This document shows positions 8,101-42,606 of a stretch of DNA of 42,606 nucleotides, in pieces. The translations under genes were made by a program, and so were the position numbers. Numbering within the stretch: position 1 is the first letter of the stretch; the number at the start of each line of letters is the position of its first letter. The stretch covers positions 1 to 42,606 of the forward strand of contig JAPPNA010000102.1 in the NCBI GenBank assembly GCA_028873925.1, in the 5' to 3' direction. Under the pieces are notes generated by a model. It was not told where the DNA came from and searched no databases. It was given only the letters and a program-made list of their open reading frames with translations. Origin of the DNA: Bacteroidota bacterium (lineage in GTDB: Bacteria > Bacteroidota > Rhodothermia > Rhodothermales > Bin80).

Positions 8101-9825
8101 ATGATTACCAGGCTTACCATTCGCAATTTCAAGCGGTTTAGCGATGTGGAGATTCCATTGGACAATCCGGTGGTGTTTGTCGGGCCGAACAATTCGGGCA
8201 AAACCTCGGCCATTCAGGCGCTCATTTTGTGGCAGGTGGGTCTGCAACATTGGATCGCAAAGTACGGTGGAAAATCAGCACCGGAAAAGCGGCCCGGCGT
8301 AACCGTCAACCGCCGGGATTTACTCGCCATCCCGCATCCCAATGCGAAACACCTCTGGCGGAATATGCGGGTTCGGCAAGTGGAATACCCTGATGGCAAA
8401 CAGCAGACCCGCAATGTTAGAATTGAGATCATTGTGGAGGGGCGGCATGGCGGGAATACCTGGACCTGCGGCCTGGAATTTGATTTTGCCAACGCCGAAT
8501 CCTTCTACTGCCGACCCTTGCGCCTAGAAAGCGGCCGGAGCCCGAACAGGATGCCCGTGCCCAAGGAGGCTGGCTCCGTACAGATTGCCTACCTCCCCCC
8601 GATGTCGGGACTGTCCCCGAATGAAGCTCGGCTCGACCCGGGCGCTGTCAATGTACGGATCGGCGAAGGGCGTACCGCAGAAGTGCTGCGCAACCTGTGT
8701 TTCCGTGTATGGCAGGAAAACCCGGACCATTGGAATAAAATCGCAGCCAGAATCAGTCACCTGTTCGGAGCGGATCTCAAGGTACCAGCCTATGTGCCCG
8801 GACGTGGAGAGATCAACCTGGCGTACCGTGAACGCGGTATAGAATTTGACATTTCCTCCAGCGGTCGCGGCCTGCAGCAGACACTTCTGATTCTCACCTA
8901 TCTGCAGGCCCATCCGCATTCCTTGGTTTTGCTGGACGAGCCGGATGCGCACCTGGAAATACTCCGCCAGAAACAGATTTACAACCTGATTGCTGAAATC
9001 TCGCGCGTCAGTGGCGGTCAGGTAGTCGCGGCCAGTCACTCGGAAGTTCTGCTCAATGAAGCAGCAGAGAAGGATACCGTGATTGCCTTTATCGGACGGC
9101 CTCATAAGATCCTCAACGGCCGCAGTCAGGTGAGCAAGGCACTCAAGAGTATCGGATGGGAGCACTTTTACCAAGCGGAACAGACCGGTTGGGTACTGTA
9201 CTTGGAGGGTCCTACCGACCTGGATATTCTGCAGGCGTTTGCGCGGAGGGTGGGGCACAACCGGGCAACGCAAGCACTGGAGAGGCCCTTTGTGCATCAC
9301 GTCAGTAATCAGCCAAACAACGCGGCTGAGCATTTTTACGGCCTTCAGGAGGCTTTGCCCGGCCTGAAAGGGATTGCCCTTCTTGACCAACTCCAAGGCA
9401 ATCTTCCCGACTATCGCTCCTTTGAACACCTAACCTGGAGGTGTCGGGAGATTGAAAACTACTTCTGCACCGAAGCCACCCTCATTGCCTTTGCCCAAGC
9501 ACCTGAGACTGCGGTGGGACCTCTTTTTGCGGATTCAGTGCGCCTTGAACGCACCGAGGCTATGCAAAATGCCATCGCTAAGGTGAGCACTGCGTTGGAA
9601 ACACTCGGTCAGGGTGAACTGTGGGGCTCGCAGACCCGGGCGAGCCTCGATGTTCTTGGGCCCGTTATGAAGGCCTTTTTTAAGAATCTGGGGCTGCGGA
9701 ACACCATGGGTAAGCGTAACCTCCACGAATTGGTCCGATTCGTGCCGGATCACGAAATCGATCCCGAAATAACCCAAAAACTGGATGCCATCGCTTCGGT
9801 GGCCGAAGCGGCTGAGGCAGCCTGA
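8101..9825 (+). CDS. OLD-like ATPase with C-terminal TOPRIM-like domain
   Basis: A 574-residue protein. The ABC/SMC-like ATPase part has Walker A GPNNSGKT at 28-35, a signature-like SSGRGLQQ near 250-260, Walker B VLLDEPDAHL with D279/E280, and a switch histidine in AASHSEVLL (H313). After about residue 365 comes a TOPRIM-like part: YLEGPTD with E369, an LLDQLQG strand with D429, and a CREIENYF segment near 449-455. This is the layout of the OLD nuclease family, which includes anti-phage proteins such as P2 OLD and GajA. The second TOPRIM acidic motif lacks a clear DxD, so nuclease activity is uncertain. It stands alone on its strand after a Fic gene and faces the convergent PorW-like gene. 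No helicase partner of the GajB type is next to it. Confidence 0.82.
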   Translation: MITRLTIRNFKRFSDVEIPLDNPVVFVGPNNSGKTSAIQALILWQVGLQHWIAKYGGKSAPEKRPGVTVNRRDLLAIPHPNAKHLWRNMRVRQVEYPDGKQQTRNVRIEIIVEGRHGGNTWTCGLEFDFANAESFYCRPLRLESGRSPNRMPVPKEAGSVQIAYLPPMSGLSPNEARLDPGAVNVRIGEGRTAEVLRNLCFRVWQENPDHWNKIAARISHLFGADLKVPAYVPGRGEINLAYRERGIEFDISSSGRGLQQTLLILTYLQAHPHSLVLLDEPDAHLEILRQKQIYNLIAEISRVSGGQVVAASHSEVLLNEAAEKDTVIAFIGRPHKILNGRSQVSKALKSIGWEHFYQAEQTGWVLYLEGPTDLDILQAFARRVGHNRATQALERPFVHHVSNQPNNAAEHFYGLQEALPGLKGIALLDQLQGNLPDYRSFEHLTWRCREIENYFCTEATLIAFAQAPETAVGPLFADSVRLERTEAMQNAIAKVSTALETLGQGELWGSQTRASLDVLGPVMKAFFKNLGLRNTMGKRNLHELVRFVPDHEIDPEITQKLDAIASVAEAAEAA

Positions 9826-37764: not shown

Positions 37765-38800
37765 ACCGTACAGGAAGAGTGGCCCCGCACATGGATCGTA
37801 TCAAAAGGCGATGTGCTCGGTATAACGATTGTATGCGGTGAATCCGCACCGCATATTCTGTTGCATTAGAGATGCCCGAGGCCCACTGTGAATTGTGAAA
37901 CGCAACGGTCCAAGTTTCTGGATGGTTGTGTGTCTGGATTTTGCAAATTGAAACGCCGTACAGATGCCGGTGAAATTGAAGCTGACCACTCAATCAGGCC
38001 CTGCTGATGCCCGCAATTGACTGGATCACGATTAAGGGCTTCAAGAGCCTTGCGTCCATTGAACGGCTGCCGCTGCGCCAAATCAATATTCTCATCGGGG
38101 CGAACGGGGCCGGAAAATCCAATTTCATTGAGGCGCTTGATCTATTCCGAGCCACCATTAATGGCGAGCTCCTCCGGTTTGTGCTGCATGCAGGCGGAGC
38201 CGAGCCGTTACTCCACTTCGGAAAACGGAAGACTTCTGAGATTCATCTTCAATGGTCCCTCCAGGATGAGCGGATCCATTACGAAATTGAATTAGGGGTC
38301 AACCAGGGGAACATCCTGGAAATCCTTAAGGAAGTCTGCACCATCAACGGATTGGACGATCAAGGCCAGCCGCTGACCACCAGAATCAACCTGCCCAGCA
38401 CCAGTGCAGGAGTCAATTATCATCGCGACAGCTCTAAACCGGTAGCATCTGTGAGGGCCTACTTGGAAAAGATGTGGGTCTATCACTTTCACGACGCGGG
38501 TAATCTGTCGCCCATGAAAAACACGCCGAGGCTCCACGACAATCGGTTCTTACATGCCGATGGCGCTAATCTGGCAGCATTCCTGTATCTCCTCCGCGCA
38601 CGGTATGAACATGCTTATGATGCCATACGGTCCACGATACGGCTGGCAGTTCCGTTCCTGGAGGATTTCAAACTGGAACCGGTGAAGCTCAACCCCAACA
38701 CCATTAGGCTGGAATGGAGGCATCGAGGCTCGCGGCATTCGTTTGACATATCGTCCTTATCCGATGGTACCTTGCGCTTTATCGCGCTGGTCACATTGCT
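37765..38800 (+). repeat. Long direct repeat, copy A (5' flank plus first two thirds of ATPase)
   Basis: Nearly the same sequence is found at 40055-41122. It starts with ACCGTACAGGAAGAGTGGCC, runs through the upstream flank and about 265 codons of the ATPase. At the protein level there are only about eight differences in this stretch. Within the flank, copies differ by a replaced segment (about 49 nt here against about 81 nt in copy B). Identity drops sharply after 38800. Confidence 0.92.
37881..37921 (+). repeat. 41-nt direct repeat, copy 1
   Basis: Identical to 39550-39590 (begins GCCCACTGTGAATTGTGAAA). In copy A of the long repeat it replaces the segment found at the same place in copy B. 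The other occurrence forms the broken end of the first DUF4276 gene. Confidence 0.9.
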
Positions 38801-39161
38801 CCTGCAGCCACCGGAAACTCGCCCGCCGGTCATAATGCTCGATGAGCCTGAGCTTGGTCTGCACCCTATGGCCATCGATCTTCTCGCTGCGCTCATTGAC
38901 CGAGCGTCTGCTGGTGCTCAAATCATTGTTGCGACACAGTCCTCTCACCTCATTGATCATTTTGACCCGGAGGATGTCGTAGTTGCCGACCGTGTGAAGG
39001 GGGCGACGATGCTTTCCAGGTTACAGACGGATAAACTCAAGGGATGGCTTGAGGAGTATAGTCTCGGCCAGCTATGGGAGAACAACGAATTTGACGGGTG
39101 CCCATGCCTGAGACCGCTTGATGAGCATCCATACCAGCCCACGGCTGCTGGTCCTTGTTGA
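38007..39161 (+). CDS. AAA ATPase of the ATPase/DUF4276 module, copy A (C-terminal frameshift)
   Basis: 384 residues. Walker A GANGAGKS at 31-38, an SLSDGTLRF signature near 252-260, Walker B VIMLDEPELGLHP with D279, and an ATQSSHLIDHF switch segment. This is a RecF/SMC-like ATPase of the kind seen in OLD- and PARIS-type systems. Compared with copy B there is a one-base deletion near 39103-39108, so the last residues change to CPCLRPL and the frame runs on about 14 codons, overlapping the next gene by 41 nt. If the base were restored, the stop would fall at 39119-39121, overlapping the DUF4276 ATG (TGATG). The ATPase core is intact, but its partner is truncated, so copy A is probably not functional. 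Confidence 0.8.
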   Translation: MPAIDWITIKGFKSLASIERLPLRQINILIGANGAGKSNFIEALDLFRATINGELLRFVLHAGGAEPLLHFGKRKTSEIHLQWSLQDERIHYEIELGVNQGNILEILKEVCTINGLDDQGQPLTTRINLPSTSAGVNYHRDSSKPVASVRAYLEKMWVYHFHDAGNLSPMKNTPRLHDNRFLHADGANLAAFLYLLRARYEHAYDAIRSTIRLAVPFLEDFKLEPVKLNPNTIRLEWRHRGSRHSFDISSLSDGTLRFIALVTLLLQPPETRPPVIMLDEPELGLHPMAIDLLAALIDRASAGAQIIVATQSSHLIDHFDPEDVVVADRVKGATMLSRLQTDKLKGWLEEYSLGQLWENNEFDGCPCLRPLDEHPYQPTAAGPC

Positions 39162-39567
39162 AGGCATGACGGAGTACAATTTTGTCAATGCCATCTTGAG
39201 GGCACACCTATATTCTTTAGGGTTTGGGCCTGTAAACGCACGCCTGTTGGGCCCTCGTCAGGAAAGATCACGCCGCGGGGGTATCTGTGGCTGGCATTCT
39301 GCACGATTCGGAATTGTACGTCACCTGAAAGAAGACCGAACATGCTTCATTTCTACCATGGTGGACTATTATGGGCTACCGAGTAGTGGTCACAAGGCAT
39401 GGCCCGGTCGAGCTGCGGCCTCAAGTATCGATTTCAAACGAAAAGCCGGGGTTGTTGAGCATGCCACCCTCAATGACGTTCAGAATACCTTGGGCAGCAG
39501 GTTCGATCCAATTCGATTCTTGCCCTTTGTCATGATGCACGAATTTGAAGCCCACTGTGAATTGTGA
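39121..39567 (+). pseudogene. DUF4276 protein, copy A, truncated
   Basis: 148 residues from the ATG at 39121. It carries the family start (LLVLVEGMTEYNF), the RRGGICGWHSARFGIVRHL segment, the TMVDYYGLP motif and MMHEFEA. It then diverges right after HEFEA and ends in four foreign residues, HCEL. The break coincides with the 41-nt repeat at 39550-39590. About 95 C-terminal residues present in copy B are missing. Family members are predicted TOPRIM-like partners of AAA ATPases. Loss of the end probably inactivates it. Confidence 0.8.
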
Positions 39568-39590
39568 AACGCAACGGTCCAAGTTTCTGG
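39550..39590 (+). repeat. 41-nt direct repeat, copy 2 (breakpoint of DUF4276 copy A)
   Basis: Identical to 37881-37921. Its first bases continue the DUF4276 reading frame, and the rest supplies the foreign stop. The sequence after it differs from that after copy 1, so it marks a recombination or insertion junction. Confidence 0.9.
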
Positions 39591-40054
39591 CTCCTTGCGG
39601 CCATCCTACCCCGGGGTGATCCGATGCCGCCTCAGAAGGTCAGGGCGATGCCGTGGTGAATAAAATGGGGTCATGGATGCAGCGTACGCCCGCGACCCCG
39701 ATCAATTCAGTGGTGGTGCCCCGCAGGTCCCGAATCCCCGCCGCCGCGCGCGGATCAATAAACCCAAGAACGCCGCCAATCAGAGTGCTGAACATTCCGA
39801 AAATAAGGACATTAAAGGTAATCAAGGCCCGTCAAAATGACCCCACCCCGACAGGCTGCAGCTGACCTCAAAGTGTCTCATTTTAGCTGGCACAGCCCGT
39901 TTCTTCGTGGCTGGCACCCTGATCACTGACGGACTCGGACATCCACAACTGAAGCTACCCTCTTCGCACAAGGTACCACACTACCCGAAAACAGCCCGAA
40001 CCCCCCGCCCATGGACCACCGGATCCGGCCTCATCATCAGTTTTCCGAATGCAT
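39591..40054. other. About 460 nt spacer between the two modules, with a possible gene fragment
   Basis: This stretch joins the broken copy A to the repeated flank of copy B. On the minus strand 39640-39825 gives a 61-residue peptide with a hydrophobic start (MITFNVLIFGMFSTLIGGVL) and a soluble end. It may be the start of a broken membrane-protein gene, but I cannot name the family. No transposase, terminal inverted repeat or target duplication is evident. The plus-strand frame 39907-40131 looks spurious. Confidence 0.4.
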
Positions 40055-41122
40055 ACCGTACAGGAAGAGTGGCCCCGGACATGGATCGTATCAAAAGGCG
40101 ATGTGCTCGGTATAACGGTTGTATGTGGTGAGTCCGTACCGTAGTTTCTGTTGCATTCAGGGATGCCCGAGGTATCTAGTCCCATGACCCGCAAAATTTA
40201 CGCAGGCTGCCGGGGGTGCTTAATCGGCATCGGAGCAGTAGCTGGCTGTCTGTGTCTGGATTTTGCAGATTGGACCGCCGAACAGAAGCCCGTGAAATTG
40301 AAGATGACCACTCAATCAGGCTCTGCTGATGCCCGCGATTGACTGGATCACGATTAAGGGCTTCAAGAGCCTTGCGTCCATTGAACGGCTGCCGCTGCGC
40401 CAAATCAATATTCTCATCGGGGCGAACGGGGCCGGAAAATCCAATTTCATTGAGGCGCTTGATCTATTCCGAGCCACCATTAATGGCGAGCTCCTCCGGT
40501 TTGTGCTGCATGCAGGCGGAGCCGAGCCGTTACTCCACTTCGGAAAACGGAAGACTTCTGAGATTCATCTTCAATGGTCCCTCCAGGATGAGCGGATCCA
40601 TTACGAAATTGAATTAGGGGTCAACCAGGGGAACGTCCTGGAAATCCTTAAGGAAGTCTGCACTGTGAACGGATTCGACGATCAAGGCCAGCCGCTGACC
40701 ACCAGAATCAACCTGCCCAGCACCAGCGCAGGAGTCAATCATCATCGCGACATCTCTAAACCGGTAGCGTCTGTGAGGGCCTACTTGGAAAAGGTGTGGG
40801 TCTACCACTTTCATGACGCGGGCAATCTGTCGCCCATGAAAAACACGCCGAGGCTCCACGACAATCGGTTCCTACATGCCGATGGCGCTAATCTGGCAGC
40901 ATTCCTGTATCTCCTCCGCGCACGGTATGAACATGCTTATGATGCCATACGGTCCACGATACGGCTGGCAGTTCCGTTCCTGGAGGATTTCATACTGGAA
41001 CCGGTGAAGCTCAACCCCAACACCATCAGGCTGGAATGGAGGCATCGAGGCTCACGGCTTTCGTTTGACATATCGTCTTTGTCGGATGGTACCTTGCGCT
41101 TTATCGCGCTGGTCACATTGCT
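40055..41122 (+). repeat. Long direct repeat, copy B
   Basis: Counterpart of 37765-38800. The offset between copies is 2290 nt at the left end and 2322 nt inside the ATPase; the difference is the replaced flank segment (here about 81 nt between GATGCCCGAGG and TGTCTGGATTTTG). The match stops abruptly in the ATPase gene after CACATTGCT. Confidence 0.92.
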
Positions 41123-41447
41123 ACGTCAGCCGTTGGAGCTTCGCCCGCCTGTCATTCTATTGGATGAACCCGAGCTTGGTCTGCATCCCGCTGCGCTTGT
41201 GACTCTCGCCGCGCTGATCAAGAAGGTGTCTATTGCGACACAAATCGTGCTTGCGACTCAGTCGTCTCAATTCGTAGATCATTTTGATCCCGAGGATGTA
41301 TTGGTCGTAAATCGTTCGGGAGGAGCGACGACTCTAACACGGTTACGGTCCAATGGGCTGCAGGAGTGGCTCAAAGATTACTCTCTGGGCCAACTGTGGG
41401 AGAAGAACCACTTTGGAGGGCGCCCGATTCCTGAATCCGTCGGATGA
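40329..41447 (+). CDS. AAA ATPase of the ATPase/DUF4276 module, copy B (intact)
   Basis: 372 residues with Walker A GANGAGKS at 31-38, the SLSDGTLRF signature, Walker B VILLDEPELGLHP and an ATQSSQFVDHFDPED segment. The first 265 or so residues are almost the same as copy A. The last third is clearly different (for example AALIKKVSIATQIVLATQ against AALIDRASAGAQIIVATQ). The gene ends with a TGA that overlaps the DUF4276 start (ATGA), the normal coupling in such pairs. It is a RecF/OLD-like ATPase that I expect to act with the following protein. Defence against phage is likely by analogy to ATPase-TOPRIM systems, but not shown. Confidence 0.88.
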   Translation: MPAIDWITIKGFKSLASIERLPLRQINILIGANGAGKSNFIEALDLFRATINGELLRFVLHAGGAEPLLHFGKRKTSEIHLQWSLQDERIHYEIELGVNQGNVLEILKEVCTVNGFDDQGQPLTTRINLPSTSAGVNHHRDISKPVASVRAYLEKVWVYHFHDAGNLSPMKNTPRLHDNRFLHADGANLAAFLYLLRARYEHAYDAIRSTIRLAVPFLEDFILEPVKLNPNTIRLEWRHRGSRLSFDISSLSDGTLRFIALVTLLRQPLELRPPVILLDEPELGLHPAALVTLAALIKKVSIATQIVLATQSSQFVDHFDPEDVLVVNRSGGATTLTRLRSNGLQEWLKDYSLGQLWEKNHFGGRPIPESVG

Positions 41448-42163
41448 GCGGATCAGTCACGCCACGGCTGCTGATACATGTTGAGGGGCAGACTGAGGAG
41501 AATTTTGTCAACGAGGTCTTGGGACCTCACCTAATCACGCGTGGATTGCACAGCGTTGGGGCCCGCCTAATCGGCAATCATCAGGAACGTATTCATCGGG
41601 GTGGAATCAGAGCATGGAGTACTGTTCGGAATGACATCGTGCGTCACCTCAGGGAAGACCGCACCTGCTACGCTACAACTATGGTGGACTATTATGGGCT
41701 TCCAAAACGAGGCCGCAGAGGTTGGCCCGGTCAAGATGCCCCCGATAACGCAAACGCCATCCAGAAGGCAGAACTGGTAGAGAGTGCCATTACTCAAGAT
41801 ATTCGAAATCATTTGGGGGATCGGTTTAATTCCCGACGATTTATACTGTTTGTCATGATGCATGAATTCAAGGCCCTCCTGTTTAGCAACTGCAGTATTA
41901 CTGCCGATGTCCTTGGTGTGCCCAGCGCTGGCCCCTGGATGTGGAGTATCCTGGAGAGCTTTCAAACTCCAGAGGAAATCAACGACTCGGCAGAAACAGC
42001 TCCATCAAAACGCATTCAGAAACTCGTAGGCGATTTTCAGAAACCGGTCGATGGGATTCTCGCGCTAATGAAGATTGGTCTGCCAGCCATTCGAACCTCA
42101 TGCCCTCATTTCGGCGACTGGCTCGGCAAACTGGAGCAGCTGGCTGTTGGACAACCCCCTTGA
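41444..42163 (+). CDS. DUF4276 protein, copy B (predicted TOPRIM-like partner)
   Basis: A 239-residue protein with the complete DUF4276 pattern: an N-terminal strand LLIHVEGQTEENFV (E14, E18), RGGIRAWSTVRNDIVRHL, TTMVDYYGLP with D82, and MMHEFKALLFSN with H140-E141. These acidic residues are spaced as in TOPRIM-like nucleases; the fold assignment is from what I remember of the family and is not certain. The gene overlaps the ATPase stop by 4 nt. Together they form a two-gene module similar in plan to split OLD or PARIS systems. Confidence 0.86.
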   Translation: MSGSVTPRLLIHVEGQTEENFVNEVLGPHLITRGLHSVGARLIGNHQERIHRGGIRAWSTVRNDIVRHLREDRTCYATTMVDYYGLPKRGRRGWPGQDAPDNANAIQKAELVESAITQDIRNHLGDRFNSRRFILFVMMHEFKALLFSNCSITADVLGVPSAGPWMWSILESFQTPEEINDSAETAPSKRIQKLVGDFQKPVDGILALMKIGLPAIRTSCPHFGDWLGKLEQLAVGQPP

Positions 42164-42274: not shown

Positions 42275-42606
42275 TTATTTCACCTTCAGGTTCCCGCCTA
42301 AGTTGTCCCACTCGGTTACTCGGCGCGTCCCCAAATCAATATTTATTGAGCTCAGACCGTACCGCCAAGTCTCGTACCCTAAAAACTCATAGGTATCAAT
42401 TGAGCTGGGAGTACCCTGAACCTGCAGCACTATGTCAGCATGAGATCCGCGCGTGAATGCTACCGCCCCCTGCGTCTGACGCTCGGGCTGTAACTGCACC
42501 TTCAGGTTCCCGCCCAAGTTGTCCCACTCAGTTACTCGGCGCGTCCCCAATTCAATATTTATTGAGCTCAGACCGTACCGCCAAGTCTCGTACCCTAAAA
42601 ACTCAT
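42275..42606 (-). CDS. C-terminal end of a protein with 72-residue repeats (partial)
   Basis: The minus-strand frame is open from the window edge to a TAA at 42275. Its last part shows two copies of FLGYETWRYGLSSINI followed by LGTRRVTEWDNLGGNLKV, exactly 72 residues apart. The second copy is nearly the same as the first (3 changes in 110 bases). WxYG and WDN-type repeats like these are found in exported Bacteroidota and Rhodothermota proteins, but no function is known to me. The start lies beyond the window. It is convergent with the DUF4276 gene. Confidence 0.65.
   Translation of the reverse strand, partial: EFLGYETWRYGLSSINIELGTRRVTEWDNLGGNLKVQLQPERQTQGAVAFTRGSHADIVLQVQGTPSSIDTYEFLGYETWRYGLSSINIDLGTRRVTEWDNLGGNLKVK
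42281..42606. repeat. 110-nt direct repeat at 216-nt spacing
   Basis: Bases 42281-42390 recur at 42497-42606 with three differences. The 216-nt period is 72 codons, so the repeat keeps the reading frame of the partial gene here. More copies may lie beyond the right edge. Confidence 0.92.

Follow-up and report, generated by a model that had tools for sequence, protein, structure and literature searches.

We analyzed 42,606 nucleotides of a Bacteroidota bacterium (GenBank assembly GCA_028873925.1, contig JAPPNA010000102.1, positions 1 to 42,606; this whole stretch is referred to as the window), which form part of a 72.6-kb contig in a 3.93-Mb assembly of 185 contigs with 98.6% completeness. As a preliminary description of the DNA had reported, two two-gene modules stand side by side immediately after a complete cytochrome oxidase operon (SCO, COX2, COX1, COX3, and COX4 plus cytochrome c). 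They are followed by a protein kinase gene and housekeeping genes. Each module, here called copy A and copy B, consists of an AAA ATPase gene and a downstream DUF4276 gene, and both proteins match the family models of HEC-01 (Hma-embedded candidate 01) in PADLOC-DB 2.0.0. Thus, the locus is a further member of a system that is already listed as a candidate. The coordinates of the features are collected in Table 1.

The ATPases of copies A and B matched Pfam AAA_21 (E values of 2e-32 and 1e-30, respectively) and, near full length, the PADLOC model HEC-01A (4.2e-122 and 1.2e-121). The ATP motifs were intact in both, with GANGAGKS at residue 31 (Walker A), LSDG at 251 (signature), DEPE at 279 to 282 (Walker B), and the switch motif. 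A structure model of ATPase B (predicted local distance difference test [pLDDT] score, 76.9) resembled SMC and Rad50 heads, AriA (8v46, Z score of 19.4), and PtuA (Z ~19), and on this model HEC-01A is a head of the SMC/Rad50/AriA/PtuA type. The shifted end of ATPase A noted earlier was traced to a 1-nt deletion near position 39104 relative to copy B, which alters the last residues only. In copy B, the ATPase and DUF4276 reading frames overlap by 4 nt, in agreement with the preliminary description. DUF4276-B matched the Pfam family over the full length of the profile (E value of 6.6e-45) and HEC-01B over positions 14 to 227 of 230 (1.8e-68), and DUF4276-A, which had rightly been called truncated, covered positions 1 to 105 of 192 (6e-15) and only 14 to 137 of 230 (2.6e-27).

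A search of the PDB by sequence returned no relatives of DUF4276. The AlphaFold2 model of DUF4276-B (pLDDT, 85.7; predicted template modeling score, 0.85) was realigned against the top 1000 chains from Foldseek, and the matches were ranked by Z score. The 13 best PDB matches were all TOPRIM domains of the OLD/GajA/PARIS type, with Z scores from 9.2 to 6.2, while unrelated folds reached at most 5.6. Class 2 OLD proteins led the ranking (6nk8, Z score of 9.2 over 184 residues at 4.8 Å; 6njv, 6njw, and 6njx, 8.5 to 8.3) and were joined by GajA (7.4 to 6.5), PARIS (8ux9, 7.1), and the class 1 protein Ts OLD (6.2). The aligned region, residues 5 to 238, comprises the TOPRIM fold and a C-terminal helical domain. 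These matches bear out the proposal that an ATPase is paired here with a TOPRIM-like protein on the plan of OLD, Gabija, and PARIS, and the structure prediction for 41444 to 42163, put forward as the way to check it, did yield a TOPRIM-like fold. With moderate confidence, we assign DUF4276 to the OLD/GajA/AriB type of TOPRIM fold; the assignment is structural and is helped by the motif pattern.

The metal ligands of Bp OLD are E400, E404, D455, D457, T506, and E508, to which K562 is added (PMC6755086). DUF4276 has E14/E18 (i, i+4), D82, E141/E143, and K200, a series that follows the Bp OLD order and keeps its spacing within motifs, and E14 and E18 are conserved in 48/48 homologues. E141/E143 are spaced like T506/E508 of Bp OLD, in which E508 is the direct metal-B ligand and lies in the first helix of the helical domain. 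The profile alignment was weak, and the hhalign comparison with two OLD proteins of the same genome gave a confident match at the VEGQTE motif only. Judged by the order and spacing of the motifs, position 143 would correspond to E508.

Copy B has Lys at position 143, in the motif HEFKALLF; this position is occupied by Glu in 47 of 48 homologues, in four plasmid copies, and in a prophage copy. The earlier statement that copy B is intact therefore holds for its reading frames but not for this conserved residue, and the substitution, E143K, probably affects a metal-ligand position. Bp OLD withstood single substitutions at its metal ligands and lost processive cleavage upon triple substitution (PMC6755086); by this analogy, K143 may weaken copy B rather than kill it. 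The DUF4276 sequence of copy A ends within HEFEA at 39549 to 39551, at a junction with the terminal sequence of an insertion sequence (IS) of the IS30 type. Approximately 40 nt of sequence at this junction recur at ~12 sites in the genome, at the ends of IS30-type elements, the transposases of which carry HTH_38 and rve domains. Copy A thus lacks the C-terminal helical domain. Since both effector genes carry a lesion, the locus may be impaired, and it looks like a homogenized and partly worn defense pair. Within the family, DUF4276 genes are often broken, with frameshifts or stops in G001, G004, G006, G010, G012, and G014, which fits rapid turnover. Separately, an HEC-01B homologue of SAR202 bin87 (L100, 7986 to 8690) is split by an in-frame stop at 8346 to 8348, with an ATG immediately after it.

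The two modules differ from each other very unevenly along their length. Copy A has 30 mismatches to copy B in the ~870 nt from 37929 to 38800, including a 297-nt run (38016 to 38312) with none, and 106 mismatches in the 307 nt from 38801 to 39107. The boundary at 38800 is abrupt, lies directly behind the ABC signature motif, and separates two halves of the ATPase that differ strongly in a Fisher test (p of 4e-40). Residues 1 to 257 of the ATPases are 97% identical and residues 258 to the end 64.5% identical. The synonymous divergence (dS) rises from 0.076 for the front of the ATPase gene to 1.24 for its back and reaches 2.08 for the portion of DUF4276 that both copies retain; the ratio of nonsynonymous to synonymous divergence (dN/dS) was 0.17 to 0.22 in all segments compared. 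Stronger constraint was rejected as the cause of the nearly identical front, since in all other homologue pairs compared residues 1 to 257 were less conserved than the remainder (48% and 58%, respectively, between copy B and its homologue L097). The back parts of A and B share 60% identity, and either one shares 58 to 60% with homologues from another genus, 57% with those from another family, and 55 to 57% with those from another phylum. In a tree built from the 3' part, the two copies were weakly to moderately supported sisters (96/80), with branch lengths of 0.37 (A) and 0.33 (B), and the closest relatives included genomes of Acidobacteriota and Chloroflexota. The tandem duplication noted earlier is confirmed as two copies, but it is a mosaic rather than a fresh duplication. 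The simplest reading of these comparisons is that copies A and B are two old paralogues, of which the promoter region and the N-terminal two-thirds of the ATPase would recently have been homogenized by gene conversion or unequal recombination.

One more tandem HEC-01 pair was found among the 15 other genomes of the family, in genome G014 (contig C80; L040, 7311 to 11574). It belongs to a distant branch, 34 to 36% identical to copy B, and its two copies share 95 to 98% identity in the upstream region and first part of the ATPase, 64 to 78% over most of the rest, and 98% in an internal patch inside DUF4276. Genome G005 carries a single HEC-01 copy at the same locus between the same flanking genes, and the front part of either G014 copy is 35 to 77% identical to it. 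The G014 copies have thus been kept alike in front, while the rest is about as divergent between them as from the single copy. Two mosaic tandem pairs show that the arrangement recurs, but not that selection chooses the tract.

The ATPase and DUF4276 genes are consistently paired. In 54 cases, a DUF4276 reading frame had an ATPase gene directly upstream, and of the four frames that lacked one, three were pieces of broken genes or second halves and the other was L036; the order of ATPase and then DUF4276 held in every complete homologue found, L036 aside. HEC-01 was present in 12/16 genomes of the family (that of the window included), 34/245 of the class, and 55/296 of the phylum, and in none of 14 reference genomes. 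It is accessory and patchily distributed. The genome of the window holds two further pairs (C135 and C61), both with open frames and the conserved Glu. At the position after COX4, 10 relatives had no HEC-01, but they differ in the downstream genes as well, which limits the value of the comparison as an empty-site test.

Relatives often place the pair in defense cassettes, as the preliminary description had anticipated for a defense system. In another genome of the family (G013, contig C121; L049, 3375 to 12763), HEC-01 is flanked by hsdS and hsdR within a type I restriction-modification (R-M) operon. On plasmids, it is flanked by helicase and methylase genes (Aeromonas media), stands between methylase and helicase genes and adjoins an OLD-like gene (A. 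veronii), occurs with R-M, Mrr, and toxin-antitoxin (TA) genes (Ideonella), adjoins VapBC (Acinetobacter), or lies near Piwi and PD-(D/E)XK genes (Nostoc); on plasmids of Piscirickettsia, Fischerella, and Scytonema, it had no clear defense neighbor except an HNH endonuclease. The C61 pair has AbiEi/AbiEii-like genes downstream. In a Mu-like prophage (IMG/VR UViG_2767802354_000002; L128, 4143 to 6654), HEC-01 lies directly downstream of an S24-type repressor gene, and it is likely a prophage-borne defense gene pair. Genes that are expressed during lysogeny classically occupy this slot behind the repressor. Neither outcome that the preliminary description had named as refuting its proposal was observed, since the predicted fold is TOPRIM-like and the pair is accessory and often placed in defense cassettes. 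Phage records gave no match to HEC-01, and only 2 of 2.9 million viral contigs did. The DNA of an Aeromonas HEC-01 had no match in Escherichia coli genomes. As a separate observation, the genome of the window also carries a complete-looking Gabija system (L168, contig C113, 19000 to 23500) with GajA (E value of 2e-185) and GajB (3e-175).

Table 1. Features of the tandem HEC-01 locus (positions are those of the window)
Feature	Positions	Strand	Basis or remark
Copy A upstream region	37765-38006		~92% identity over 103 nt with 40055-40157 upstream of copy B
IS30-type insertion-sequence end remnant, 62 nt, upstream of ATPase A	37882-37943		Same end as that fused to DUF4276-A; occurs ~12 times in the genome
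Homogenized tract, copy A	37929-38800		Partner of 40251-41122
Copy A HEC-01A ATPase, 384 aa	38007-39161	+	Reading frame, Pfam, PADLOC
Copy A HEC-01B (DUF4276, predicted TOPRIM), ~148 aa, truncated after HEFEA	39121-39567	+	Pfam, PADLOC
IS30-type end fused to truncated DUF4276-A	39549-39590
Spacer between copies	39616-40053		Repeats shared with many genome sites and contig ends (IS/repeat debris)
Homogenized tract, copy B	40251-41122		Partner of 37929-38800
Copy B HEC-01A ATPase, 372 aa	40329-41447	+	Pfam, PADLOC, structure model
Copy B HEC-01B (DUF4276, predicted TOPRIM), 239 aa, full length	41444-42163	+	Pfam, PADLOC, structure model
AAG codon, Lys143 of DUF4276-B	41870-41872	+	Glu in 47/48 homologues

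The window contained no tRNA or tRNA attachment site, a search of Rfam gave no match, and promoter and terminator scans scored no better than shuffled sequences. Repeat pieces in the spacer (39616 to 39899) are present at more than 20 sites in the genome, many of which are contig ends, which suggests mobile elements that broke the assembly. Beyond copy B, at 42281 to 42606, two 110-nt repeats with 97% identity lie 216 nt apart and encode a repeated peptide (FLGYETWRYGLSSINI...) on the minus strand that had no match in Pfam. Elsewhere in the window, at 8101 to 9825 on the plus strand, a solitary gene for an OLD/AriA/NsnB-like AAA ATPase of 574 aa stands between other genes (AAA_15 E value of 2e-19; best PADLOC match NsnB, 5e-24).

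Taken together, we read each module as an HEC-01 split OLD system and the two as old paralogues with homogenized fronts and a probable role in phage defense by abortive infection, and we put the probability of this reading at about 75%. The pair of an ATPase and a putative TOPRIM nuclease very probably defends against phages. The data show its family, fold, pairing, accessory distribution, and defense context, and we infer the sensing, activation, substrate, and protective effect of HEC-01, with PARIS and HEC-04/IbfA as models for infection sensing, release, and cleavage. HEC-01A and HEC-01B would be translated as an overlapping pair, and the ATPase would most likely assemble, hold the TOPRIM nuclease inactive, and sense infection, as in PARIS, whose ATPase keeps a toxic TOPRIM protein sequestered and releases it (PMC12409363). 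After ATP-dependent release or activation, the TOPRIM protein would cleave nucleic acid, either tRNA or DNA, through a two-metal mechanism, and this cleavage would stop phage growth, probably through abortive infection. Copy A, after homogenization, would then have lost its TOPRIM C terminus at the IS30-type end.

Several points weigh against this interpretation. A literature search found no phage protection result for HEC-01, and no other defense gene adjoins the site in the window, where the neighbors belong to the oxidase operon or have housekeeping functions. The defense role suggested in the preliminary description is thus backed by the PADLOC candidate status and by the context of relatives, but not by the site itself, which is not a defense island. 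Plain Foldseek searches with DUF4276-B gave nothing significant (best E value, 0.017), so the fold call depends on the realigned list. The DxD motif of Bp OLD is not matched, since D82 is found in 48/48 homologues but the third position is Tyr in 46/48 (Tyr84). Finally, judged by the tolerance of Bp OLD, E143K need not inactivate copy B.

An alternative origin of the mosaic, which we consider possible but unlikely, is recombination with a third HEC-01 module that was acquired horizontally and took the place of one copy's 3' part, rather than conversion between two resident copies. HEC-01 is transferred horizontally, with genomes of other phyla among the closest 3' relatives, and IS debris flanks copy A, but A and B are sisters, if weakly supported, in the 3' tree, and the G014 pair, with its highly identical start that includes upstream DNA and its internal patch, fits repeated conversion. 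With regard to function, the proximity of plasmid copies to partition and TA genes would suit a TA-like pair that stabilizes mobile elements, in which the ATPase restrains a toxic TOPRIM protein and phage defense is secondary. We regard this as doubtful: most copies in the family are chromosomal, a position inside R-M operons is typical of defense, and the two roles overlap, as PARIS itself restrains a toxic TOPRIM protein (PMC12409363). A housekeeping or DNA repair function as an ATPase-nuclease is improbable, even though the ATPase fold is common to Rad50, SMC, and RecN and the local neighbors are respiratory and housekeeping genes, given the patchy distribution, carriage by plasmids and a prophage, location within R-M operons, and many broken copies. 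A recent tandem duplication followed by decay of copy A, in which high identity reflects recent copying and low identity lost constraint, would explain the 1-nt deletion, truncated effector, and 97% identical ATPase fronts, but it is very improbable and in its simple form was rejected on synonymous divergence, because the diverged part (dS of 1.2 to 2.1, dN/dS of ~0.2) indicates long purifying selection after divergence, the boundary is abrupt, and the similar 3' branch lengths speak against accelerated decay of A. The preliminary picture of one intact and one decaying copy thus gives way to one of old paralogues in which both effectors carry a lesion.

Under the split OLD reading, HEC-01 becomes a testable PARIS-like system with predicted catalytic residues, and the E143K variant is a natural test of a putative metal ligand. 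The two mosaic pairs point to concerted evolution in one part of a defense module, with the part that faces the effector remaining distinct; this would give bacteria a simple route to diversify defense with regulation retained. A more speculative idea, to which we give little credence, is that a tandem HEC-01 is a shared sensor with two effectors: conversion would equalize the promoter and the N-terminal part of the ATPase, including its middle insert, and selection would keep the C-terminal lobe and the cognate TOPRIM protein different. If so, a single trigger specificity would act through two nuclease specificities, both of which phages would need to evade. As far as the literature searched shows, the assignment of DUF4276 to the TOPRIM nucleases and the arrangement of tandem pairs as a mosaic are new; no mention of DUF4276 was found, consistent with the earlier remark that it is little studied.

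Compared with other HEC-01 systems, the pairs in the window have the same order of genes, but they are tandem and mosaic, carry a lesion in each effector, and lie beside an oxidase operon, outside the Hma- or R-M-type cassettes seen in relatives. PARIS (AriA and AriB) has been described as a class 4 OLD system with separate ATPase and TOPRIM genes (PMC10568477), and HEC-01 resembles it in this split and in the folds of both proteins (8v46, AriA; 8ux9, a chain of the PARIS complex). However, DUF4276 matched only HEC-01B in PADLOC and not the AriB (DUF4435) model. GajA of Gabija and class 2 OLD proteins (6nk8, 6njv, and 8sm3) gave the best match for the TOPRIM and helical fold (Z scores of 9.2 to 7) and share the conserved E..E, D, E, and K in equal order, but GajA is a single ATPase-TOPRIM chain that acts with the UvrD-like helicase GajB, whereas HEC-01 has two chains and no adjacent helicase. 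HEC-04/IbfA shares the ATPase-TOPRIM domain logic and the origin as an "embedded candidate"; in contrast to HEC-01, it is one fused protein, with reported protection against T4 and T5 (PMC12111858). PtuA of Septu and retron systems has a related ATPase head, while its partner, PtuB, is an HNH nuclease rather than a TOPRIM protein.

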